IMG/VR virus record: IMGVR_UViG_3300036398_003121 | Span: 1 to 24,508 of that record | DNA: 24,508 nucleotides | Origin: a virus | Reading direction: 5' to 3' (one strand) | Shown: piece after piece, positions 2 through 22,678 of the stretch | How the letters are laid out: every line of letters starts with the position of its first letter | How positions within the stretch are numbered: the stretch's first letter is position 1 | Notes under the pieces: generated by a model | Database searches by the model: none | Seen by the model: only the letters and a program-made list of their open reading frames with translations | What the model was told of the DNA's origin: nothing | Translations under genes and position numbers: made by a program

Positions 2-301
2 AATATTATTGGGGATGATAAACATTTCTTAATTTTTTCTGACGATATTAAATGGTGTGAAGAAAACTTTAATTTCTTAAAAAATAAAACATTTATATCG
101 GGTAATTTAGATTATGAAGATTTATACCTAATGTCAATGTGTAAAAATAATATATTAGCAAATTCAACATTTAGCTGGTGGGGAGCTTGGATGAATCAAA
201 ATGAAAATAAACAAGTCATTATACCTTCAAAATGGTTTGGAGTTTCCAATTCACATTTGAATACTAATGACTTATATTGTGATAAATGGATTAAATTATG
301 A
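2..301 (+). CDS. GT11-type fucosyl/colitosyltransferase, C-terminal fragment (5' truncated by window edge)
   Basis: An open frame enters at the left edge and stops with TGA at 299-301. About 99 C-terminal residues are visible. They contain the motif ANSTFSWWGAW, characteristic of the GT11 alpha-1,2-fucosyltransferase family, preceded by a region (FLIFSDDIKWCEENF) resembling the GT11 acceptor-side segment. Family members transfer L-fucose, or L-colitose in WbgN-type enzymes, from the GDP-sugar to galactose-containing glycans. The stop overlaps the ATG of the next gene, so the two are probably translationally coupled. The downstream genes make GDP-deoxyhexoses, which fits a GDP-fucose or GDP-colitose donor. 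The N-terminal half with the HxRRxD site lies outside the window. The family call is firm; donor and acceptor are inferred. Confidence 0.8.
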   Translation, partial: NIIGDDKHFLIFSDDIKWCEENFNFLKNKTFISGNLDYEDLYLMSMCKNNILANSTFSWWGAWMNQNENKQVIIPSKWFGVSNSHLNTNDLYCDKWIKL

Positions 302-1218
302 AAATATTAGTTACAGGCTCAAATGGATTATTAGGAAGAGCATTAAAAAAAGTTTTAGGTGATGGTCACGTATACCACACAAGAAAAGATGTTGATTTAA
401 CAAATTATGAAGAAACATTTAAATACTTTCAAGATAAAGTATTAAATGAAGGTGTGGATACCGTTATTCATACCGCAGCTAAAGTTGGTGGTGTTAATGC
501 GAACATGAACAATAACCAAACATTTTTTAATGACAACTACATTATTAATAGTAATGTAATTAAAGCGTGTTCAATTCTTCAAATTGATAATTTTGTAAAT
601 ATATTATCAACTTGCATTTTCCCACATGAGAATATTGTCTATCCATTAACCTCAGACCAAATTGATAAAGGAGCTCCACACCCATCAAATTATGGGTACT
701 CATATGCTAAAAGATTATCAGGATATGAAACACAAATCTTTAGGGATGTTTTAAAGAAAAATTGGTACTCAGTAGTACCAACAAATCTTTATGGACCTTA
801 TGACAATTTTAATTTAGAAGATAGTCATTTAATCCCTGGTATGATTCACAGAGCATATTTAGCAAAACAAAACAATGAAAAATTTGTTATTTGGGGGGAT
901 GGTTCACCATTAAGACAGTTTGTTTATTCAGAAGATATGGCAAAATTAATTGTGTGGTCTTTAACTAATTGGAATTCTGAAAAACATTGTATGATGATAG
1001 ATGAGACCGAAGTTTCTGTGATGGAGGTTGCAAATATAATCACCAAAAAATTTGGATTTAATGATAACGATTTAGTGTTTGACGAAACTAAACCAAGAGG
1101 TCAATTTAGAAAACCAGCGGCGTCAGATATTAAAGATTTTGAGTTTAAGCCAATTGAAGAGGGTATTAATGAAACTATCGATTGGTTTATAAACAATTAC
1201 GAAAACGCTAGAAAATGA
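298..1218 (+). CDS. fcl: GDP-L-fucose synthase-type epimerase/reductase (Fcl/WcaG; possibly ColC-like)
   Basis: 306-aa SDR-family protein. Members convert GDP-4-keto-6-deoxy-D-mannose to GDP-L-fucose by 3,5-epimerisation and NADPH reduction; the related ColC acts in the same way on the 3-deoxy intermediate to give GDP-L-colitose. Visible signatures are the Rossmann motif TGSNGLLG at residues 6-13, the Ser/Cys pair S104 and C106, YxxxK at Y134-K138 inside GYSYAKR, and H177 in DSHLIPG. All match the catalytic Ser, Cys, Tyr/Lys and His of Fcl, so both epimerase and reductase steps look intact. Length is normal. The C-terminus (ending NNYENARK) closely recalls the animal FX/TSTA3 form. The start ATG overlaps the preceding stop, and the end overlaps the ColD-like gene. 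Fucose versus colitose product cannot be decided from sequence alone. Confidence 0.88.
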   Translation: MKILVTGSNGLLGRALKKVLGDGHVYHTRKDVDLTNYEETFKYFQDKVLNEGVDTVIHTAAKVGGVNANMNNNQTFFNDNYIINSNVIKACSILQIDNFVNILSTCIFPHENIVYPLTSDQIDKGAPHPSNYGYSYAKRLSGYETQIFRDVLKKNWYSVVPTNLYGPYDNFNLEDSHLIPGMIHRAYLAKQNNEKFVIWGDGSPLRQFVYSEDMAKLIVWSLTNWNSEKHCMMIDETEVSVMEVANIITKKFGFNDNDLVFDETKPRGQFRKPAASDIKDFEFKPIEEGINETIDWFINNYENARK

Positions 1219-2375
1219 AAAAAATAGATTTAATTCAAGATACAATTGACAATCAAGATATTGACAATTTAATTCAATGGTTAAAGGAATATCCAAGATT
1301 AACTAAAGGACCTAAAACAATTGAGTTTGAAACAAAATGGTGTGAATGGTTAGGGTCCAAATATTCAATATTTGTGAATTCTGGTTCATCCGCGAATTTA
1401 CTTATGTTATACGCTCTAAGAGTACTTAACAAAATGAAGAATAATAAAGTTTGTGTTCCTGCGTTATGTTGGGCAACTGACTTATCACCAGTACTTCAGT
1501 TTGATATGAAACCTTTATTAATTGATTGTAATTTAGATAATTTATCAATTGATTTAAAACATTTAGAAGAGGTGTTTAAAACAGAACAACCATCAGTTTT
1601 ACTATTAGTTTCGGTATTAGGATTGTCACCTGACATGGATTCAATAGTTGAGTTATGCCAAAAATATGATGTGATTTTACTTGAGGATAATTGCGAATCT
1701 CAAGGGACTAAATTTAAAGGAACTAAGTTAGGTAACTTTGGATTGATGTCTTCATTTTCAACATATTTTGGTCATACGATGTCCACAATTGAGGGTGGTG
1801 TTATTACAACAAATGATGAGGAGATTTACCATACATTATTACAACTTAGAAGTCATGGATGGGATAGAGATTTACCTGAGTCAAAACAACAAGAATTAAG
1901 AAAAGAATGGGAAATTTCGGATTTCTCAGCACTTTACACATTTTACATACCAGGGTTCAATTTAAGAAGTACAGATTTACAAGCACAACTTGGAATCCAA
2001 CAATTGTTAAAAGTTGACGGAATGATTAGTAATCGATTCCAAAATTTCCTATATTATAAATCAAGGTTGGAGGGTAAAATTTGGTTTCCAAAAACATTTA
2101 ATGATGAGTTTACATCAAATTTTGCAATTCCTGTTATTACTAAAACACCTGAAGACAAACAAAGATTAATAAAGGAGTTAGAAGAAAATAACATTGCCTG
2201 TAGACCTTTAATTTCAGGGTCTATGGGAACACAACCATTTTATAAAAAATTGTATGGTGAAAATAAATTACCTAATTGTTCTATAATCGATGAACGAGGA
2301 GTTTATGTTCCAAACCATGATAAGATGACAAAAGAAGATATCGATAGAGTTTGTGATATCTTACTAAAATATTAA
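1215..2375 (+). CDS. ColD-like PLP-dependent sugar 3-dehydratase (DegT/DnrJ/EryC1 family, catalytic Lys replaced by His)
   Basis: 386-aa fold-type-I PLP enzyme. NSGSSANLLM (55-64) is the phosphate-binding loop and LLEDNCES (155-162) carries the PLP-nitrogen aspartate (D158). The usual Schiff-base lysine is replaced: the segment YFGHTMSTIEGG has H187 at that site. This His is the hallmark of 3-dehydratases such as ColD (H188) and the CDP-sugar E1/RfbH enzymes, which remove the C3 hydroxyl instead of running a normal aminotransferase cycle. The LLEDNCES block, EEIYH, the RSHGWDRDLP block and the ACRPLISG block all resemble ColD as I remember it, and length and His position agree. The substrate in that family is GDP-4-keto-6-deoxy-D-mannose, the product of Gmd encoded two genes downstream. 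It overlaps fcl by 4 nt and is followed 3 nt later by the next gene. Confidence 0.8.
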   Translation: MKKIDLIQDTIDNQDIDNLIQWLKEYPRLTKGPKTIEFETKWCEWLGSKYSIFVNSGSSANLLMLYALRVLNKMKNNKVCVPALCWATDLSPVLQFDMKPLLIDCNLDNLSIDLKHLEEVFKTEQPSVLLLVSVLGLSPDMDSIVELCQKYDVILLEDNCESQGTKFKGTKLGNFGLMSSFSTYFGHTMSTIEGGVITTNDEEIYHTLLQLRSHGWDRDLPESKQQELRKEWEISDFSALYTFYIPGFNLRSTDLQAQLGIQQLLKVDGMISNRFQNFLYYKSRLEGKIWFPKTFNDEFTSNFAIPVITKTPEDKQRLIKELEENNIACRPLISGSMGTQPFYKKLYGENKLPNCSIIDERGVYVPNHDKMTKEDIDRVCDILLKY

Positions 2376-2378
2376 AAT

Positions 2379-3164
2379 ATGTTGAGATTTACAAAACCAG
2401 CAAGAGGCAAAGATATTCATCAGAGAGGATATTTTTCATACATTACTGAAGGGATTATTCACATTTATAATGCAAAGTTAAATCATCCAAACGAAAAATT
2501 TAAAGTTTATTTTGATTTATTCGACATATATGGATACGGTAAAGGAAACATTTTTGATGTTTGTTTTATTCAAGATACTGAAGATTATAAATTAAACTTT
2601 AATAGTTATTCCAACATTGAATGGTTGGATACACTGACTCGTTTTGACCCATATGATGAAACAACTTTCACCAAAGAAAAATTTGAAACTTGTGAACAAA
2701 TCATTAAAGAGCATTTGGTGTTAAACGATGAAATGAAAAATCTATTCTCATCAAGACATTCTCAAATTGATTTTACAAATACTATTGGATTCCATAGAAG
2801 AGCAACAGATATGATACTACATCATATTCCAACAATACCTTTGGATAATATTTTTAGTTCAATTGAACAAGAAGAATTTGAAAACATATTTTTAATGTCT
2901 GACAATGTAGACGATTTAAATAAATTCAAACAAAGATATGGTAATAGATTAATAACCTTTGACGAATTTAGTACTTCAGAGTTGGATAGTAACCCATTTT
3001 TTAAAATGAATAAAGATGAAGAATCAACTAAAAACCACATAAAAGAAATTGTGTTTGGTGCGTATACATTAGGGATGACAAAAAAATTATATTGTACAAA
3101 ATCTAATTTATCAACATTCTCAATATTATCAAACTCAAATTTAAACTATAAAAGATTAAATTAA
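2379..3164 (+). CDS. Putative fucosyltransferase-like glycosyltransferase (GT-B, HxRR motif)
   Basis: 261-aa protein that I do not recognise with certainty. Residues 137-144 read GFHRRATD, resembling the H-x-R-R/L-x-D nucleotide-sugar site of GT11, GT23/NodZ and O-fucosyltransferases. It is followed by a strand ending in MSDN (173-176), as in the SDD element of those families. A C-terminal segment with YCTKSNLSTFSIL (238-250) resembles the part where these enzymes close the GDP pocket. No signal peptide or membrane helix is visible, so it would act in the cytoplasm. It lies between the ColD-like and Gmd genes, with 3 nt on the left and 1 nt on the right. That position supports a role as a transferase of the GDP-sugar made here, or as an accessory of the pathway. 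An unrelated function remains possible. Confidence 0.5.
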   Translation: MLRFTKPARGKDIHQRGYFSYITEGIIHIYNAKLNHPNEKFKVYFDLFDIYGYGKGNIFDVCFIQDTEDYKLNFNSYSNIEWLDTLTRFDPYDETTFTKEKFETCEQIIKEHLVLNDEMKNLFSSRHSQIDFTNTIGFHRRATDMILHHIPTIPLDNIFSSIEQEEFENIFLMSDNVDDLNKFKQRYGNRLITFDEFSTSELDSNPFFKMNKDEESTKNHIKEIVFGAYTLGMTKKLYCTKSNLSTFSILSNSNLNYKRLN

Positions 3165-3165
3165 C

Positions 3166-4149
3166 ATGACAAAAAAAATTGCACTTATTACAGGAATAAA
3201 TGGACAAGATGGTTCGTATCTGGCGGAATTTTTAATTGGGAAAGATTATGAAGTTCACGGTACATTGAAAAGAAATTCAGTCGCTGAAAATCAAACCGCA
3301 AGATTGGATAGTATCTATACTCAAATCAATTTACACTATGCAGATTTAACTGATTTGTCTTCGTTAATTTCCGTTATTCAAAAAGTTAATCCTGATGAGA
3401 TTTACAATTTAGCCGCACAATCGCATGTTAGAATTTCATTTGACCAACCTATATACACAGCAAACGTCACTGGTCTTGGAACTCTTAACTTATTAGAGGC
3501 CGTTAAACTGATTAAACCATCAATTAAAATATACCAAGCATCGTCTTCCGAAATGTTTGGAAATTGTATTGATAAAGATGGATATCAAAGAGAAACAACC
3601 CCGATGAATCCAGTATCTCCATACGGATGTGCTAAAGTATATAGTTATAACATCGCAAGAAACTATAGAAACTCTTACGGTATGTTTATTTCTAATGGTA
3701 TTTTGTTTAATCACGAATCACCAAGAAGAGGTACAAATTTCGTAACAAATAAAGTTTGTAAAGAAGTTGTAAAAATACATTTAGGATTATCTAATGAACT
3801 TAAACTTGGTAATTTAGACGCAACAAGAGATTGGGGTCATGCTAAAGATTACGTAGAAGCCATGTGGATGATACTTCAACAAGATAAGTCCGATGATTAT
3901 GTATGTTCTACAGGTATTTCACATTCAGTTCAAGACTTATGTGAATACACTTTTTCTAAATTTGGATTAGATTATAAAAAATATGTTAAATCTGATGAGA
4001 AGTTTTTGAGACCCGAAGAACTTCATAATTTAAAAGGAGATTCTTCAAAATTAAAATCAATAACAGGATGGTCACCTAATTATACCTTTGAAACAATGCT
4101 CGACGAGATGTTAGAATATTGGATAAACTATTACACTAAAAATAAATAA
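3166..4149 (+). CDS. gmd: GDP-mannose 4,6-dehydratase
   Basis: 327-aa SDR enzyme that converts GDP-D-mannose to GDP-4-keto-6-deoxy-D-mannose, the shared precursor of GDP-fucose, GDP-colitose, GDP-rhamnose and GDP-perosamine. The N-terminal TGINGQDGSYLAEFL gives the GxxGxxG dinucleotide site (G10, G13, G16). LKRNS (35-39) is the NADP-preferring Arg region. NLAAQSHV (81-88), SSSEMFG (126-132, with the Ser/Thr and Glu catalytic residues) and YGCAK (Y153, K157) complete the active site. NHESPRRG (182-189) and LGNLDATRDWGHAKDYVEAMW are classic Gmd blocks. It is slightly shorter than cellular Gmd (about 345-370 aa) but has no missing core motif. It is the entry enzyme of this cassette and the most securely assigned gene in it. 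Its stop shares one base with the PhoH start (TAATG). Confidence 0.95.
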   Translation: MTKKIALITGINGQDGSYLAEFLIGKDYEVHGTLKRNSVAENQTARLDSIYTQINLHYADLTDLSSLISVIQKVNPDEIYNLAAQSHVRISFDQPIYTANVTGLGTLNLLEAVKLIKPSIKIYQASSSEMFGNCIDKDGYQRETTPMNPVSPYGCAKVYSYNIARNYRNSYGMFISNGILFNHESPRRGTNFVTNKVCKEVVKIHLGLSNELKLGNLDATRDWGHAKDYVEAMWMILQQDKSDDYVCSTGISHSVQDLCEYTFSKFGLDYKKYVKSDEKFLRPEELHNLKGDSSKLKSITGWSPNYTFETMLDEMLEYWINYYTKNK

Positions 4150-5781: not shown

Positions 5782-6834
5782 ATGGACGCATCGTTAAACG
5801 AAAAAGTAAAACTATCAATTCAAAATCTAAGAAATAAGAAATCAAGAATTTATTTCTTAGTACAAGACACTAAAGGAAACGCCAAAGCCTCTGTTAGATT
5901 AATTTATCAAATGGCAAAATCTCTTTTAGATTCAGGATTTAATCCAATAATTCTTCACGAGAAAAATGAATATGCTGGAGTTGTAGCTTGGATGGATGAA
6001 GAATATATGTCAATTCCTCATAAATCAATTGAAGGTCAAAATTTGGAAATTTCACCAGAAGATTTCATTATTGTACCTGAAATTTTTGGATTTATCATGG
6101 AACAGATTAAAAATTTACCTTGTGGTAAAATTGTTTTAACTCAAAATTATTCTCACATTGTTGAGACATTACAACCAGGACAAAGTTGGTCTCAATATGG
6201 CTTCTTTAAATGTATAACAACATCAAAAAAACAACAAGAGTATATTGAGAACGTGATGAGACAAACTAGTTTTGATATTGTTAAACCATTAATTACCGAC
6301 AGTTTTTATCCAAAAGAATTACCTCCAATGCCAATCATTGGTGTTCACACTAAAGAACAGGAAGATACAATTAACATCATTAAAACTTTTTATCTAAAAT
6401 TCCCACAATATAGATGGTTCACATTTAGAGATTTGAGAGGTCTTTCAGAAAAAGAATTTTCAAATTCTTTACGTGATTGTTTTGTCAGTGTTTGGATGGA
6501 CGAACAAAGTGGGTTTGGTACATTCCCATTAGAATCTATGGCATCAGGTGTTCCTGTTATTGGTAAAGTACCTTATACTCAACCTGAGTGGATGAATGAA
6601 GATAATGGTGTTTGGGTTAGTGACCCAAATATGATTTGTGATTTTATTGCAGACTTCATTCAGAATTGGTTAGAAGATAATATCAAACCTGAACTTTACG
6701 ATAACATGAAAAAAACAGTTGAAAACTACACAAATAAACAAGAATTTGACTCATCAGTTACTTCATTATTCGAAGAATATCTAAACATAAGAGCAAATTC
6801 ATTTGAAGAACAAATTTCTAAAACCGAAGAATAA
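5782..6834 (+). CDS. GT4/GT1-like glycosyltransferase (GT-B fold)
   Basis: 350-aa protein. The C-terminal half carries the GT4 nucleotide-sugar signature: SGFGTFPLESMASGVPVIG (about residues 243-261), with the E-x(7)-E-like position occupied by the Glu of PLES, followed by WMNEDNGVWVSDPN. The N-terminal half has strands and helices consistent with an acceptor-binding Rossmann domain (IYFLVQDTKGNAKASVRLIYQMAKSL resembles the loop that senses the sugar diphosphate). No membrane segment is visible, so it is a soluble retaining transferase. Donor and acceptor are not evident. It is directly followed by a GT2-like gene 1 nt after its stop, suggesting that both act on one glycan, on virion protein or on DNA. 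The family assignment is good, the role is open. Confidence 0.75.
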   Translation: MDASLNEKVKLSIQNLRNKKSRIYFLVQDTKGNAKASVRLIYQMAKSLLDSGFNPIILHEKNEYAGVVAWMDEEYMSIPHKSIEGQNLEISPEDFIIVPEIFGFIMEQIKNLPCGKIVLTQNYSHIVETLQPGQSWSQYGFFKCITTSKKQQEYIENVMRQTSFDIVKPLITDSFYPKELPPMPIIGVHTKEQEDTINIIKTFYLKFPQYRWFTFRDLRGLSEKEFSNSLRDCFVSVWMDEQSGFGTFPLESMASGVPVIGKVPYTQPEWMNEDNGVWVSDPNMICDFIADFIQNWLEDNIKPELYDNMKKTVENYTNKQEFDSSVTSLFEEYLNIRANSFEEQISKTEE

Positions 6835-6835
6835 T

Positions 6836-7642
6836 ATGAATACTAAATTATCATTATCAGTTATATTACCAATTAAATCGTCAAAAGCAAGAAATTTTGA
6901 TGAGTATTTTGAAAAGGCTATCGCATCAATTAAAACTCAATCAATTGAAATTGAAGAGTTAGTTATCGTTCATTCGTCAGAAGAATCGTTAGTTAATTTT
7001 TTAAATAATTATGATTTTGAATCTTTAAATGTTGTTAAATTATTGTGGGATAAAGACCCAAATTATTGTGAACAAGTAAACTATGGAATTAGTAACTCTA
7101 AAGGCACTTGGATTTCTTTGTTTGAATTTGATGACGAATACTCTTCTATTTGGTTTAAAAATGTTAAAAAATATGTTGACTCATATCCTAACGTACAAGC
7201 GTTTTTACCTGTAGTTGTTGAAACTGACGAAAAGGGTATGTTTGCAGGTTTTACAAATGAAGCAACTTTTGCTGCAAATTTCACACAAGAAATGGGATTC
7301 TTAACAAACGAAACATTACAAGATTATCAAAATTTCCAAACTGCTGGATGTGTCATTAAAAAATCAGTTATTGAAGATTTTGGAGGTTTTAAATCATCAA
7401 TTAAATTAACATTTGTTTATGAGTTCTTGCTAAGATTGACTTATAATTCGGTGTCTATAATGACAATACCTAAACTTGGTTACAAACACACTAACATGAG
7501 AGAAGGTTCTATATTTTGGAATTATAAATTTGGTGAAGAACAAATGTTAGAAGACGAAGTTAAATTTTGGGTTCAAACCGCAAAAAAAGAATATTTCTTT
7601 GTTGATGATAGAAACATAAAATATCAATCAGACAATGTATAA
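6836..7642 (+). CDS. GT2-like glycosyltransferase (GT-A fold)
   Basis: 268-aa protein. The N-terminus LSVILPIKSSKARNFDEYFEKAIASIKTQ is the classic GT2 opening (strand, then a helix with xSIxxQ), followed by ELVIVHSS. NYGISNSKGTWISLFEFDDEY (82-102) has the family pattern ending in the metal-binding DxD equivalent, here FDD/E at 98-101. A later GGF segment (FGGFKSSIKLTFVYEFLLRL) corresponds to the acceptor-loop region where GT2 enzymes carry their ED and base. I chose the ATG at 6836 over an upstream TTG at 6803: it starts right before the conserved strand and follows the previous stop by 1 nt. Its stop overlaps the sigma gene start (TAATG). Specificity unknown. Confidence 0.75.
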   Translation: MNTKLSLSVILPIKSSKARNFDEYFEKAIASIKTQSIEIEELVIVHSSEESLVNFLNNYDFESLNVVKLLWDKDPNYCEQVNYGISNSKGTWISLFEFDDEYSSIWFKNVKKYVDSYPNVQAFLPVVVETDEKGMFAGFTNEATFAANFTQEMGFLTNETLQDYQNFQTAGCVIKKSVIEDFGGFKSSIKLTFVYEFLLRLTYNSVSIMTIPKLGYKHTNMREGSIFWNYKFGEEQMLEDEVKFWVQTAKKEYFFVDDRNIKYQSDNV

Positions 7643-11078: not shown

Positions 11079-12607
11079 TGCAAGATAATACAATATTTTT
11101 TCAGGTACAGGTGATGGACAATCAGGACCCGATGATGTTGGGTAGAATTCGAGCAAAGTTGCTTATTGATAATTACGATGATATTGTTAGGTCAATCACA
11201 GACCCCCCATGGAACGAACAAAAAGATGCTTGGACAACAAGAGACCCATTTGTTTTTAGTCCCCTTATGCCATATTTCATGTATCAAGTACCAAAGCCAA
11301 CAGAAATGGCTCAAATACTTTATACAAACAAAGATTTTAAGTATCAAAACCAATATTACATCCAAAACACGTTCTCAAGTCCAACAACAACAGGATATGA
11401 GTTTTATCAAGGTGGTAATAAATTTACAGGAACAGGAACACAATTAAAAAACCCAAAACCTTTAAAAAACCAAGATGGGACTTACACGGACCAAGCCGTA
11501 CATAAAGGAGTATTTCCTGAGCCAGGTGACAACGCATTATTAGGACGTGGAAGCGCTGACGTTGTTGTAAAACAAGATGAGGTTTTAATTAGAGCAGGTA
11601 AATTTAAAGGAACACAACTACAACCAAATATTGTACCTGTTGGAAATCAACAAAGAGGGTTTTTACAACTTTCAAGATTTAGCCAATCAAAAGTTCCATT
11701 ACCAAATAAGACTATTTTAGAAACAAATGAGGTAACCGTACAAGTAAAGTACTTGATAGAATGGACAATAACCAACCCTGAAAATACTCAAGACAAATTT
11801 GCGGGTACGGTATATCTTTATCAATTAAAACCTGATTTATCAACTAATTCAAAAAATTTAACAGTAGGTACATTTGTAAATGAAAACCTTAAATCGTTGG
11901 TTGCGTCTGAGTCGTTTAATTTATTAACAAAAACTGAAACCATTAAATTTATTAATGATTTTATTAAGACTTGTAATAGTCAGACATATACTGTTTCAGG
12001 AATTCAATTGTTTACAAGTGAACAAAATAAATTCCCAATTTTTTACAGACCAAACAATTTAACATATTCTCAAATCACATCATCATCAGTGACAGGGGCA
12101 ACCTCATCCGACGCTTACACAAATGTTTCAAGTATCTTTAATCAAATTAAATTAAAATCCGCACTTAAAGATGGTGGATATGGATTAATTTATGCGAAGA
12201 ATAAAGTTGGAAAACCTGTAAATATTAAAACAACCGTTGTACCTCAACAAACTTATTTAAATACTCAAACAACTTACGGGGCATTAGCAAGTGATACCCT
12301 TTATTTGTTATCACAATTATCGTCAATTCCTGGTAAGGGTAAAATAAACTTTGATGACACATTATATGGTATTTCATTAGATAATTTTGTTGATGAACTA
12401 TTACCAAAAACATCAAGTTTAGTTAGGGGTGAAGAACTTTTAGAACTACTTAATTTGATTGTTAGATTCTTAACAACCCATACTCACGCATATCCAGGTT
12501 TACCTCCTGTACCAGTTACTCAAGACGGTTCAAGTGTTGCAAACATGTTAACGGAGATGCAAAATGCCTATACCAAAATTCTTAATGGAAATATTCGACT
12601 TAATTGA
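11075..12607 (+). CDS. Baseplate hub/spike-like structural protein
   Basis: 510-aa protein. The first 35 residues (FFQVQVMDNQDPMMLGRIRAKLL) resemble the OB-fold start of phage baseplate proteins such as gp5 and Mu gp45/VgrG, which typically read 'x-V-D-x-x-D-P-x-x-x-G-R-V-x-V'. The C-terminus has LTTHTHAYPGLPPVPV, a His-rich turn often seen near the end of T4-like baseplate proteins. The middle is Thr/Asn/Gln-rich and beta-like. No lysozyme motif is visible. Two consecutive ATGs (11075, 11078) are possible starts, the first overlapping the upstream stop. I call it a baseplate protein from these features and from its place in the structural block; the exact T4 equivalent is not clear. Confidence 0.6.
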   Translation: MMQDNTIFFQVQVMDNQDPMMLGRIRAKLLIDNYDDIVRSITDPPWNEQKDAWTTRDPFVFSPLMPYFMYQVPKPTEMAQILYTNKDFKYQNQYYIQNTFSSPTTTGYEFYQGGNKFTGTGTQLKNPKPLKNQDGTYTDQAVHKGVFPEPGDNALLGRGSADVVVKQDEVLIRAGKFKGTQLQPNIVPVGNQQRGFLQLSRFSQSKVPLPNKTILETNEVTVQVKYLIEWTITNPENTQDKFAGTVYLYQLKPDLSTNSKNLTVGTFVNENLKSLVASESFNLLTKTETIKFINDFIKTCNSQTYTVSGIQLFTSEQNKFPIFYRPNNLTYSQITSSSVTGATSSDAYTNVSSIFNQIKLKSALKDGGYGLIYAKNKVGKPVNIKTTVVPQQTYLNTQTTYGALASDTLYLLSQLSSIPGKGKINFDDTLYGISLDNFVDELLPKTSSLVRGEELLELLNLIVRFLTTHTHAYPGLPPVPVTQDGSSVANMLTEMQNAYTKILNGNIRLN

Positions 12608-18210: not shown

Positions 18211-20013
18211 TTATCTCAATTCTCTTAAGTCGAATGTTCTTACTCCATCAACTGTGATACGTCCGTAGAAACGGTTGTTAACCATTTTCTTAGCGTAACG
18301 TGTCATAATACCTTTGATAGGTGTGAAGTTGAATGGATTGTACATTGTAGGTGTTAATTGTAGAGGTACATACGGTGCGTAGATGTAACCTGTGTCAAGT
18401 AAAGATGTACCTTTGTGACCCAACAACACTTGGTTTGGTGGGAAGTAAGGGTCTCTATACACTTGGTAACGACCTGCCAATGTACCAACTCTTTCAATAC
18501 CCATGTTGTATTGGTCTTGCTCAGGAGCCGCGTTTGATACGTGGAAGTATTCCAAGTCATCAAAGATAGCACTGATTTCAGAAGAAACAACAATCCAGTT
18601 AGCTCCACCTCTTAAGGTAGATTTGTGGATTTGAGCCGAAATTTGGTTGATAGCTGTAATCAATGTTTGATTCCAGTCTTTTTGAGTGTAAGGAACTGCA
18701 CTTGAACCAAGACGCTTCCATCCGTTGTAATCCCAACGTAAGTTCCAAGCCGCACCTTTACGTAAATCTCTTAAGATTTCACGGTCGATTTCAGCCGCAA
18801 CTTGCTCAGACAATAAAGCTGTTAATTCAGCTTCAGCGTCGATGTTGTGGAATGCTGCAACGTCTTGAGCCATTTCTGGTGACCATTGAGCTCTTAATTT
18901 TCTTTCTGTTACAGAAACTGTAACTGACATAAGGTCGAAAGATACCTCACCGATTCTATCTTCAAACTCTAAGTTTTTGTAGATTCTGTATTTAGCAGTA
19001 AATGCGTCGTTAACTGTTGTATCAGATGCAAATGTTGAACCTGTATAACCGTCCATAGAACCACCACAAGTGATACAAACTGGTACTTGTAAATCAACTT
19101 CTAAGTAAATTTTACCTTCAGTATCACATAAGTTGTCATATTGACCACCATCAGTTTTACTGTTAGGGAATACTAACGTTTCGTTGTTATTACCATATTG
19201 TACGATACCTTTACCATATCTTTGAGTTACAACTCTAAATAAGTAAGGGTTAGTTGTGTTACCTGATGTGAAAGCGTTACCAGTAGCACCATAAATAGTT
19301 AAATCAGATAAGAACGCTTCGTTGTCCATTGGTTGACCATCAGGACCGATTAATTTACCTGCTCCATCAGATGCAAAACCTGACATAACGATTAACACTT
19401 TTCTGTAATTATCCTCAGTATAAGCTGAAGGAACTAATTGGTCAGCTAACCATGAAACTGTTGTTACGTTTGCAGTTATTGCAGAAAATTGTCCTTTAGA
19501 ATAGTCGAACAATCCTGGAGGGTCCAAAGCTGGTTCGTTACCTTCGTAGAATCTATCGTAAAGGTCTTTAGTGTTATTGTAGTCATAACCACTGTTTGGT
19601 GTTTGTCCTGCCGCAGCGTTTGGTGAACCATAAGGTGCGTAGTGAATACCAGTATTCGCATTTGATTCATCAGTGTAAGCCTGAATGTTAGGTACGAAGT
19701 AGAATAATTTACCGATAGGTAAGTTCATAGCTTGTACAGAAACGATGTCGTTCGCTAATAATTTAGAGAATACACGTCTTACAATTGGGAAAACAACTGT
19801 TTCAAATGCACCTGTATCAGATGTAGATGATGCTTCGTTAATCAAGTACGATGCTTGGTTTTCGTATAATTGTGCTACGTTTTCTCTCATGTGACCTTTA
19901 AGACCCTCTAAGAATCCTAATTTGTCCCATTTGTTGATTGTGTCTTCTTTGATAACTTTAAGGTGTTTTAAACCGATGTTACCTACAAGACCTGATTCTA
20001 ATAATGCTCCCAT
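18211..20013 (-). CDS. Major capsid protein, T4 gp23 family
   Basis: 600-aa protein. The N-terminal delta region contains FLEGLKGHMRENVAQLYENQ and ends in SYLINEASSTSDTGAFETV; LINE|A (E60) matches the (L/I)xE|A/S/G consensus of T4 prohead protease gp21, near the position of gp23 cleavage (E65). The conserved core follows: VFPIVRRVFSKLLANDIVSV, then QAMNLPIGKLFYF, and later the blocks RAQWSPEMAQDVAAFHNIDA, LTALLSEQVAAEIDREILRD and NWIVVSSEISAIFDDLE with GRYQVYRDPYFP, all typical of gp23 HK97-fold subunits. Gly/Asn/Thr-rich loops near residues 200-310 are longer than in T4 (521 aa). It follows the scaffold gene after 42 nt and ends at its own terminator. It forms the head shell after cleavage. 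Confidence 0.95.
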   Translation of the reverse strand: MGALLESGLVGNIGLKHLKVIKEDTINKWDKLGFLEGLKGHMRENVAQLYENQASYLINEASSTSDTGAFETVVFPIVRRVFSKLLANDIVSVQAMNLPIGKLFYFVPNIQAYTDESNANTGIHYAPYGSPNAAAGQTPNSGYDYNNTKDLYDRFYEGNEPALDPPGLFDYSKGQFSAITANVTTVSWLADQLVPSAYTEDNYRKVLIVMSGFASDGAGKLIGPDGQPMDNEAFLSDLTIYGATGNAFTSGNTTNPYLFRVVTQRYGKGIVQYGNNNETLVFPNSKTDGGQYDNLCDTEGKIYLEVDLQVPVCITCGGSMDGYTGSTFASDTTVNDAFTAKYRIYKNLEFEDRIGEVSFDLMSVTVSVTERKLRAQWSPEMAQDVAAFHNIDAEAELTALLSEQVAAEIDREILRDLRKGAAWNLRWDYNGWKRLGSSAVPYTQKDWNQTLITAINQISAQIHKSTLRGGANWIVVSSEISAIFDDLEYFHVSNAAPEQDQYNMGIERVGTLAGRYQVYRDPYFPPNQVLLGHKGTSLLDTGYIYAPYVPLQLTPTMYNPFNFTPIKGIMTRYAKKMVNNRFYGRITVDGVRTFDLRELR

Positions 20014-21955: not shown

Positions 21956-22678
21956 TTATTTTCCCAAATAATCGGTTAATTTTCTCATTAAGTCAACTCC
22001 TTTAGATTGAAATTCCGAATTTTCAGGTGATTTGTATTTTTTTTCTTCTTCCAAGTTTTCTTCATACTTGTCTCTATCATTAGGATTACCAAATAAGTAA
22101 GCTCCTGGTGTAGATGGAGATGATACCAAGTCAAAACAGATTAATTCGAAATCATCCTGTACTTCATTTCTTTCACCAACTTTTTTCAAAGAACCTACCC
22201 CTCTTGAAGAAACTCCCATAGTAACACCTTGTCTCATTAAGTTAGCCGCTTGGTCTCCTTTAGTAGAAACAATACCTCTTTCATGAAATCCTGGTGATGT
22301 TAACAATTTAAGTTTACCCATCAAGATATTTTTATCCCACCATATGTCTGTGATAATATGGGATACTCTATCCAAGTCAATTAAAGATGATTCAGGGTGA
22401 TTAAGTTCTGAAGTAGACAAACCTTTAGCAATTGCCTTTTTATAGTTCTCAGCTTCTCTCTTTAATATTCTCTCAGGATAAAATCTTCCATTTCTATTTG
22501 GTGTATCGTATTTCTGTAATACCGCATAAAATTCAAAAGGATTTCTATAATCTAATTCTTTTGCTTCTCTTAACATCTCGGCGTTACGAACATCTTTTGG
22601 TGATATCCAACCTGCATCGGTTTCAACCAATATTCCATGACCTACTTCACTTGCTTCTAAAATTCTTAATTGTTTCAT
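21956..22678 (-). CDS. Prohead core protease, T4 gp21 family
   Basis: 240-aa protein of the gp21/U35-like serine protease group with the herpesvirus-assemblin type fold. Signatures: YDTPNRNGRFYPERIL (about 54-69), the His of ELNHPESS (about 92-99), the GVSSRGVGSL block (about 153-162) with the catalytic Ser, and CFDLVSSPSTPGAYL (about 180-194). The N-terminus LRILE|ASEVG and other (L/I)xE sites fit self-cleavage. The enzyme matures the head by cutting scaffold and capsid proteins. T4 gp21 is of similar length (212 aa). It is separated from the next gene leftward by 6 nt and preceded by a TATTTAT element 14 nt upstream. Confidence 0.9.
   Translation of the reverse strand: MKQLRILEASEVGHGILVETDAGWISPKDVRNAEMLREAKELDYRNPFEFYAVLQKYDTPNRNGRFYPERILKREAENYKKAIAKGLSTSELNHPESSLIDLDRVSHIITDIWWDKNILMGKLKLLTSPGFHERGIVSTKGDQAANLMRQGVTMGVSSRGVGSLKKVGERNEVQDDFELICFDLVSSPSTPGAYLFGNPNDRDKYEENLEEEKKYKSPENSEFQSKGVDLMRKLTDYLGK

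Follow-up and report, generated by a model that had tools for sequence, protein, structure and literature searches.

A ColD-like 3-dehydratase in a sugar-gene cassette of a T4-like phage, and its possible place in GDP-colitose synthesis

A sugar-gene cassette in a 24.5 kb viral record (IMGVR_UViG_3300036398_003121, positions 1 to 24,508; this whole stretch of 24,508 nucleotides is called the window) raises the question of which GDP-deoxyhexose it supplies. The genes at positions 2-4149 lie on one strand, overlap or are tightly spaced, and run in the order GT11 transferase (C-terminal part), Fcl/ColC-family enzyme, DegT-family enzyme of the pyridoxal phosphate (PLP) type, 261-aa protein and Gmd, with PhoH next after Gmd. 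An earlier reading of the sequence alone (the original prediction) held that they may make GDP-colitose and not only GDP-fucose. Judged from the comparisons below, GDP-L-colitose is the likeliest product. GDP-L-fucose may be made too, or instead, and some of it is possible because the Gmd product is also a natural substrate of the Fcl family.

The cassette and its PLP enzyme

The features of the cassette are as follows.

2..301, plus strand: GT11 transferase (fucosyl-/colitosyltransferase family), C-terminal 99 aa; Pfam GT11 E 2.7e-16, PHROG glycosyltransferase
298..1218, plus strand: Fcl/ColC-family 4-keto sugar epimerase/reductase, 306 aa; Epimerase/Fcl family match (the 298 product)
1215..2375, plus strand: ColD-like putative GDP-4-keto-6-deoxymannose 3-dehydratase dependent on pyridoxamine phosphate (PMP), 386 aa; DegT/DnrJ E 1e-67 (the 1215 product)
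1773..1775, plus strand: His187 codon of the ColD-like gene, at the Schiff-base Lys place of aminotransferases, equivalent to ColD His188
2379..3164, plus strand: 261-aa protein with a predicted FUT8/NodZ/POFUT fold, from a structure model
3166..4149, plus strand: Gmd, GDP-mannose 4,6-dehydratase, 327 aa; Pfam GDP_Man_Dehyd E 3.2e-121

The gene positions and the single direction were as predicted, except that GT11, said to come last, is the foremost of the visible genes and is truncated by the window start. Its 5′ part lies outside the window, and the full-length protein (260 aa) was found at L003:8305-9087. L003 is one of three longer IMG/VR contigs (L002-L004) that match the window at 99.7% over 12.4 kb and reveal the upstream region. 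Every gene that had been named was present; the 261-aa gene between ColD and Gmd had been left unnamed. The Fcl-like gene and the PLP enzyme gene share a four-base overlap (1215-1218).

The closest solved relatives of the 1215 product by sequence were four ColD entries (224-220 bits), with E1 at 115 bits and perosamine synthase at 114 bits. The structure model had a mean predicted local distance difference test score (pLDDT) of 95.1. A structure search with this model, the check proposed with the original prediction, placed ColD best (Z 50 versus 47.5 for E1): the four top entries were ColD (Z 49.7-50.5, root-mean-square deviation 1.9-2.1 over 373-374 residues), followed by E1 (Z 47.4-47.5) and by aminotransferases at 46.5 and lower. 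Among predicted viral structures, the same enzyme retrieved distant PLP enzymes only (16-20% identity at the best ranks).

The histidine predicted at the Schiff-base Lys site was confirmed by alignment, in which window His187, preceded by Gly at 186, stands opposite ColD His188. Among 220 aligned rows (overlapping loci included), 184 carry His at this place, 35 carry Lys and a single row has a gap; all 70 phage ColD-like rows had His. The places of ColD W88, E162, H215, W217, R219 and R250, picked from the alignment with an eye to the ColD structure, carried the ColD state in 70/70 phage rows and a different one in 3/3 E1 rows. The spacing of the four iron-sulphur cysteines of E1 was present in 6/6 E1 and in 0/156 other His-type rows; four cysteines within 15 residues occurred in three of those 156, not including the window, whose cysteines are spread out. 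According to the available part of PMC8987622, ColD works with PMP and loses the C3 hydroxyl of its substrate through the action of its His; ammonium is set free, and glutamate regenerates the cofactor. The exchange of Lys for His is given there as a mark of 3-dehydratases, and ColD and E1 showed no transferase activity.

By sequence and fold the 1215 product thus appears to be a His-type sugar 3-dehydratase nearest ColD and often linked to Gmd, as had been predicted. There is good support for a phage enzyme that deoxygenates the Gmd product, a GDP-sugar, at C3, given the best matches to ColD in sequence and fold, the lack of the E1 cysteine cluster, purifying selection, and Gmd within three genes in 55 of 71 relatives (see below).

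The pathway we propose starts from what is read directly in the sequence (gene content and order, families, the exchange of Lys for His, conservation and linkage); each reaction, the final sugar and the acceptor we infer. The phage would branch off host GDP-mannose with its own enzymes, Gmd converting it to GDP-4-keto-6-deoxy-D-mannose. On this product the PMP-dependent ColD-like enzyme, in which His187 replaces the Schiff-base Lys, would act to remove the C3 hydroxyl to give GDP-4-keto-3,6-dideoxymannose, and the Fcl-family enzyme would invert C5 and reduce C4 to give GDP-L-colitose. The GT11, GT10-like and FUT8/NodZ-like proteins would then spend the GDP-sugar on a glycan, most likely on the surface of the infected cell. 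We regard a pathway from GDP-mannose to GDP-L-colitose by the Gmd, ColD-like and Fcl-like enzymes as reasonably probable. The window Gmd scored 401 bits on TIGR01472, just under the curated cut-off of 415, cleared Pfam GDP_Man_Dehyd by far, and was 44-46% identical to both Gmd of E. coli O55.

Linkage, selection and gene exchange among phages

In a scan with the ColD alignment (tblastn, E 1e-3), relatives of the PLP enzyme turned up in at least 560 viral stretches, not all of them necessarily His-type, and the earlier description of such a pathway as unusual in a phage was therefore too strong. Linkage was counted in 71 distinct phage His-type proteins, drawn from 17 related contigs and the best 80 of the at least 560 stretches. 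Gmd lay within three genes of the ColD-like gene in 55 of the 71 and a Fcl-family gene in 52, with both in 43; the locus as a whole encoded GT11 in 42 cases and GT10 in 34. Gmd was held by 12 of the 17 related contigs. Of the 15 loci reaching upstream of ColD, 13 had the Fcl-like gene immediately ahead of ColD; in L015 and L016 (ColD 52% identical) it lay elsewhere. Both the 15-locus and the 17-contig sets include near-identical contigs.

Linkage was also counted from the Fcl side in 134 distinct phage proteins; the queries were Fcl-like proteins found beside ColD, so these counts lean towards the ColD-linked group. ColD was encoded within 3 kb for 35 of the 37 Fcl-like proteins at least 54% identical to the window's, for one of five at 48-54% identity, for none of 23 at 38-48% (six of which have another, lower-scoring His-type enzyme), and for 42 of 69 below 38%. 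By clade in the quick tree described below, ColD was nearby in 39/45 rows of the window's Fcl clade and in 5/27 of its sister clade. A single Fcl-family gene was present in 14/14 records like the window's, setting aside 18-19-bit matches at the Gmd place in three of them. No Epimerase-family gene beyond the Fcl-like gene and Gmd was found in six contigs of 66-130 kb, one of which is without Gmd. With one Fcl-family gene per record, the ColD product, if ColD works, would be left without any other phage enzyme of this family.

Two related arrangements were observed. A second, lower-scoring group of phage His-type PLP enzymes (235-250 bits on the ColD model; L313, L315, L322, L328, L331, L345, L352 and L357) also adjoins Gmd and a Fcl-family gene. 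In L006 and L007 neither the 261-aa gene nor Gmd lies between ColD and PhoH (around 11161-11206); no Gmd was found on either record (39 and 107 kb), and these phages may therefore rely on host Gmd.

The ratio of nonsynonymous to synonymous substitution rates (dN/dS) for ColD was 0.048-0.079 between the window and six relatives; over the pairs tested it was 0.035-0.079 for ColD and 0.03-0.12 for Gmd, rough values since dS was often near or above 1. These ratios indicate that the reading frames of the cassette are under purifying selection. The window Fcl-like protein was 61-64% identical to the copies of six relatives whose ColD is 82-88% identical, and those six Fcl-like proteins were 80-93% identical among themselves. 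The 261-aa protein was 64-67% identical between the window and relatives and 84-91% among four relatives, with a 95% identical copy in L014. Compared with relatives, these two proteins have thus diverged much more than ColD and Gmd. This pattern suggests single-gene exchange, and the Fcl-like gene (298-1218) and the 261-aa gene (2379-3164) have probably been exchanged among phages.

Descent of the two key enzymes and alternative products

The descent of both key enzymes, and several exceptions to their linkage, weigh against GDP-L-colitose as the product. The PLP enzyme was placed in a quick tree, which has 152 rows and takes Lys-type rows as its root (161 of 195 rows kept after removal of near-copies at 90%, then nine Lys-type rows dropped; His-type rows of 330 residues or fewer were dropped) and in a careful tree of 52 chosen rows that we rooted on E1 and Lys-type rows, the sole careful tree of this analysis. 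In the quick tree E1 fell outside the ColD-like rows, and Lys-type rows fell outside the His-type rows; neither tree put the window enzyme with Lys-type aminotransferases, the placement that had been named as contrary to the prediction. The careful tree resolved three lines: bacterial ColD including that of E. coli O55 (support 100/100), a phage clade that contains the window enzyme and a single row from bacteria (100/99), and a heptose-type clade of bacteria (100/99). The window enzyme lies outside the Gmd-linked bacterial clade of the characterised O55 ColD, and the phage clade groups with the heptose-type clade and with cyanophage enzymes (97/94). We therefore call the enzyme ColD-like and not ColD; by sequence it is a separate lineage, similar to ColD in the tested features except descent. 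Two proteins that branch inside the phage clade, with 71% and 62% identity to the window's, lie on contigs filed under a Lokiarchaeota metagenome-assembled genome (L026) and a Deltaproteobacteria one (L027), and these may be wrongly binned phage contigs.

The heptose-type clade comprises 33 rows in the quick tree, without Gmd nearby. The neighbours of these bacterial His-type PLP enzymes were read in three loci.

L097:3285-8874: heptose-type locus
L044:2366-8152: heptose-type locus
L078:1586-8164: heptose-type locus

They encode a GHMP kinase, a SIS-domain protein or nucleotidyltransferase, transketolase-type proteins and a Fcl-like protein, and resemble a GDP-heptose pathway with a thiamine pyrophosphate (TPP) step (transketolase/E1-type TPP proteins); we know of no named pathway for this clade. 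As a control, its 33 rows were compared with ColD at 12 positions and had the same residues at 10 of them, a further point against the proposed product. Conserved residues were consequently rejected as proof of substrate: they oppose E1 and aminotransferases, not heptose, and do not tell the sugar, and it is the link to Gmd that argues for a mannose-derived substrate. At 34 positions that split bacterial ColD from the heptose-type clade, phage rows sided with the heptose type at 13, with bacterial ColD at 10 and with neither at 11. The place of ColD W217 held Trp in 70/70 phage and 32/33 bacterial ColD rows, Met or Leu in 33/33 heptose-type rows, and Leu in the Gmd-linked cyanophage enzymes.

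The 298 product scored 193 bits on the curated Fcl model NF047922 (cut-off 500), against 551 for E. coli Fcl and 304 for O55 ColC. Its top solved relatives were the GDP-L-fucose synthases 4e5y, 4bkp and 4b8w (239-241 bits), of the eukaryotic type and taken to be the human enzyme, followed by 6aqy (226 bits) and by 1bsv (130 bits), presumably E. coli Fcl. The ranking was the same for a phage relative without adjoining ColD (282 versus 145 bits) and for another phage Fcl clade (184 versus 140 bits); O55 ColC, unlike the 298 product, was nearest 7ll6/8du0 and the 1bws/1bsv group. A quick tree of the Fcl family (135 of 190 rows kept after removal of near-copies at 80%, rows below 270 residues dropped) showed the phage proteins in groups of their own, joining neither bacterial Fcl nor the main clade of bacterial ColC; ColD-linked bacterial Fcl-family rows did not form one clade either. 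Of the phylogeny with Fcl and ColC proposed as a check, family membership was borne out, and a grouping with either bacterial set was not. The predicted colitose route stands in its C3-deoxygenation part; the 298 product may act as ColC or as Fcl.

Ser, Cys, Tyr, Lys and His at the E. coli Fcl places 107, 109, 136, 140 and 179, presumably catalytic, are all present in the 298 product; being common to Fcl and nearly all ColC rows, they are not decisive. At the place of E. coli Fcl T164, Cys was found in 20/20 main ColC rows, 9/15 other Fcl-family rows from bacterial ColD loci and 45/52 ColD-linked rows of one phage clade; the window has Thr there, as do all 39 ColD-linked rows of its clade; this is the Fcl state and a point against colitose. 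As a predictor of ColC this position failed to reach significance when phylogenetically independent pairs were compared (12 pairs, median p 1), so it was not used as a signature, and no tested residue separated the two functions once relatedness was counted. Also unfavourable are the five of 17 related records without Gmd (though all are fragments), the two of 37 close Fcl-like relatives without ColD nearby, and the six of 45 rows of the window's Fcl clade in the same position, for which no ColD was found anywhere on the six whole records.

Four other readings must be set beside the GDP-L-colitose pathway. A single Fcl-type enzyme might serve two pathways, making GDP-L-fucose when it acts on the Gmd product and GDP-L-colitose when it acts on that of ColD, and leaving mixed donors for three transferases; we judge this rather unlikely. 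It fits the nearest solved relatives of the 298 product, the Fcl state at position 164 and the one Fcl-family gene per record. It also fits what the available part of PMC12723683 states of the colitosyltransferase WbgN, namely that it accepts GDP-fucose well too, so that the presence of GT11 cannot tell colitose from fucose. The 35 of 37 close Fcl-like relatives beside ColD would, however, be odd were fucose the main product. That Gmd and the Fcl-like enzyme make GDP-L-fucose only, with the ColD product going to another sugar via a host reductase (a 3,6-dideoxy-D-hexose, for example), is unlikely. The 298 product is indeed closest to true GDP-L-fucose synthases, and in other clades ColD and Gmd stand at some phage loci with no nearby Fcl-family gene (55 versus 43 of 71); yet the Fcl-like gene directly precedes ColD in 13/15 loci of the window's group, and the six long contigs hold no further Epimerase-family reductase.

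That the ColD-like enzyme acts on a different GDP-sugar, for instance a heptose derivative, the probable kind of substrate of its sister clade, is quite improbable. The grouping with a bacterial clade whose three loci read show heptose-type genes, and the residues shared with it, would agree with such a substrate, but no heptose-type genes were seen in the window cassette or in L003 upstream, Gmd is nearby in 55/71 phage rows, and the Trp at the W217 place in 70/70 phage rows never occurs in heptose-type rows (0/33), even if the Gmd-linked cyanophage enzymes have Leu. The usual annotation would make the 1215 product an ordinary sugar aminotransferase producing an amino sugar; although it belongs to the Pfam DegT/DnrJ/EryC1/StrS family and its relatives are labelled "aminotransferase", this is very improbable with His instead of Lys at 187, Gly at 186, Lys-type rows outside the His-type rows in the tree rooted on Lys-type rows, and an exchange that marks enzymes without transferase activity (PMC8987622, in the part cited above). 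For the GDP-L-colitose pathway, we propose from these comparisons that the 298 product is a GDP-L-colitose synthase and perhaps a GDP-L-fucose synthase too.

A wider reading is plausible but tentative: T4-like phages may own an independently assembled colitose pathway, in which an old phage line of ColD-like enzymes is joined to a reductase from the eukaryotic-type branch of GDP-fucose synthases, a colitose synthase having arisen apart from the bacterial one. With up to three kinds of GDP-fucose-type transferase, such a pathway could decorate infected cells or virions with a colitose glycan specified by the phage.

Transferases, neighbouring genes and known systems

The 261-aa protein passed no library cut-off, its sole weak match being NT5C (E 0.0044). 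Its best model had a moderate mean pLDDT of 72.8 (the remaining four, 34-50), and matched FUT8 (Z 17.1), NodZ (13.7) and POFUT2 (13.4), with the next group at 8.3. The motif H-R-R-A-T-D was kept in 9/9 aligned copies. On this model the protein is, with caution, a probable third transferase of the GDP-fucose type.

In L003 the sugar-gene island starts about 8 kb further upstream. The genes there encode a CmcI-type methyltransferase, a GT10-like protein, a PglD-like protein, a Lys-type DegT-family protein nearest ArnB, two GT2 proteins, a UDP-glucose/GDP-mannose dehydrogenase-like protein and one more transferase. The GT10-like protein fell under the Pfam gathering score (E 2.8e-4) and matched an alpha-1,3-fucosyltransferase in the PDB (E 2.7e-6). 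At L003:5081-6879 the Lys-type DegT-family gene is followed by the PglD-like one, and the two perhaps serve an amino sugar made in addition to the deoxy sugar; the genes at this place differ among relatives, with UDP-galactopyranose mutase there in L012. Two further transferase-like genes lie behind PhoH in the window (Pfam Glycos_transf_1 at 5782-6834 and Glycos_transf_2 at 6803-7642) and keep their order with the following genes in related loci.

The phage type of the window was read from its head genes.

18211-20013, minus strand: major head protein
21956-22678, minus strand: head maturation protease

The major head protein matches T4-like phages. Its identity to the nearest listed phages, which are phages of Microcystis, of Flavobacterium and uncultured phages, was 42-45% over about half its length.

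Cyanophage Gmd and Fcl appear in print as GDP-fucose or cell-wall genes (PMC9602691, PMC10665884 and PMC10611076, as far as the available parts go). Other dideoxy sugars are treated for giant viruses in the accessible portion of PMC4691112, and 3,6-dideoxy sugars are described from bacterial O-antigens in that of PMC8987622. Among the open-licence papers listed by the literature searches, none came up that describes a pathway to colitose or another 3,6-dideoxyhexose encoded by a phage. If the ColD-like gene works, many phages would make a 3,6-dideoxy sugar instead of, or besides, fucose; they could alter the look of infected cells to rival phages or coat their own particles, and the label "aminotransferase" in cultured cyanophages would be corrected.

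Known systems resemble the window to different degrees. Cyanophages such as S-SCSM1 likewise have Gmd, Fcl-family and fucosyltransferase-family genes in a T4-like phage; the account of them names fucose alone in the part available (PMC9602691), whereas in the window a gene for a ColD-like 3-dehydratase stands between those for the Fcl-like enzyme and Gmd. In Synechococcus phages ACG-2014f and S-CAM7, four consecutive genes encode, in this order, Gmd, a Fcl-family protein, a His-type ColD-like enzyme and GT11; the ColD-like enzymes are 34% and 32% identical to the window's. The four genes are annotated as nucleotide-sugar epimerases, aminotransferase and glycosyltransferase, with the pathway unnamed; one S-CAM7 record labels the PLP enzyme a putative CDP-4-keto-6-deoxy-D-glucose-3-dehydrase. 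Their Fcl-family protein fell near bacterial Fcl and not with the window's in the quick tree. E1 itself (CDP-4-keto-6-deoxyglucose 3-dehydrase, RfbH/DdhC) is, like the window enzyme, a His-type 3-dehydratase of the DegT fold (Z 47.5 to the model), but unlike E1 (115 bits versus 224 for ColD) the window enzyme is without the four-cysteine spacing, and the six compared positions differ in 3/3 E1.

The colitose pathway of E. coli O55 (Gmd, ColD/WbdK, ColC, WbgN) shares with the window a Gmd, a His-type enzyme of the DegT fold, a Fcl/ColC-family enzyme and a GT11 transferase, and its colC and colD genes have the same order and the same four-base overlap as the Fcl-like and ColD-like genes here. 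O55 ColD is 33% identical to the window's enzyme, and WbgN 28% identical to the L003 GT11 protein. Unlike in O55, the phage ColD-like enzyme is a separate lineage, the Fcl-like enzyme belongs to another branch than O55 ColC, and the genes lie in a phage, beside PhoH, together with GT10-like and FUT8/NodZ-like proteins. The cassette would thus be a phage version of a bacterial O-antigen pathway, with its own lines of both key enzymes and colitose as the likely end product.

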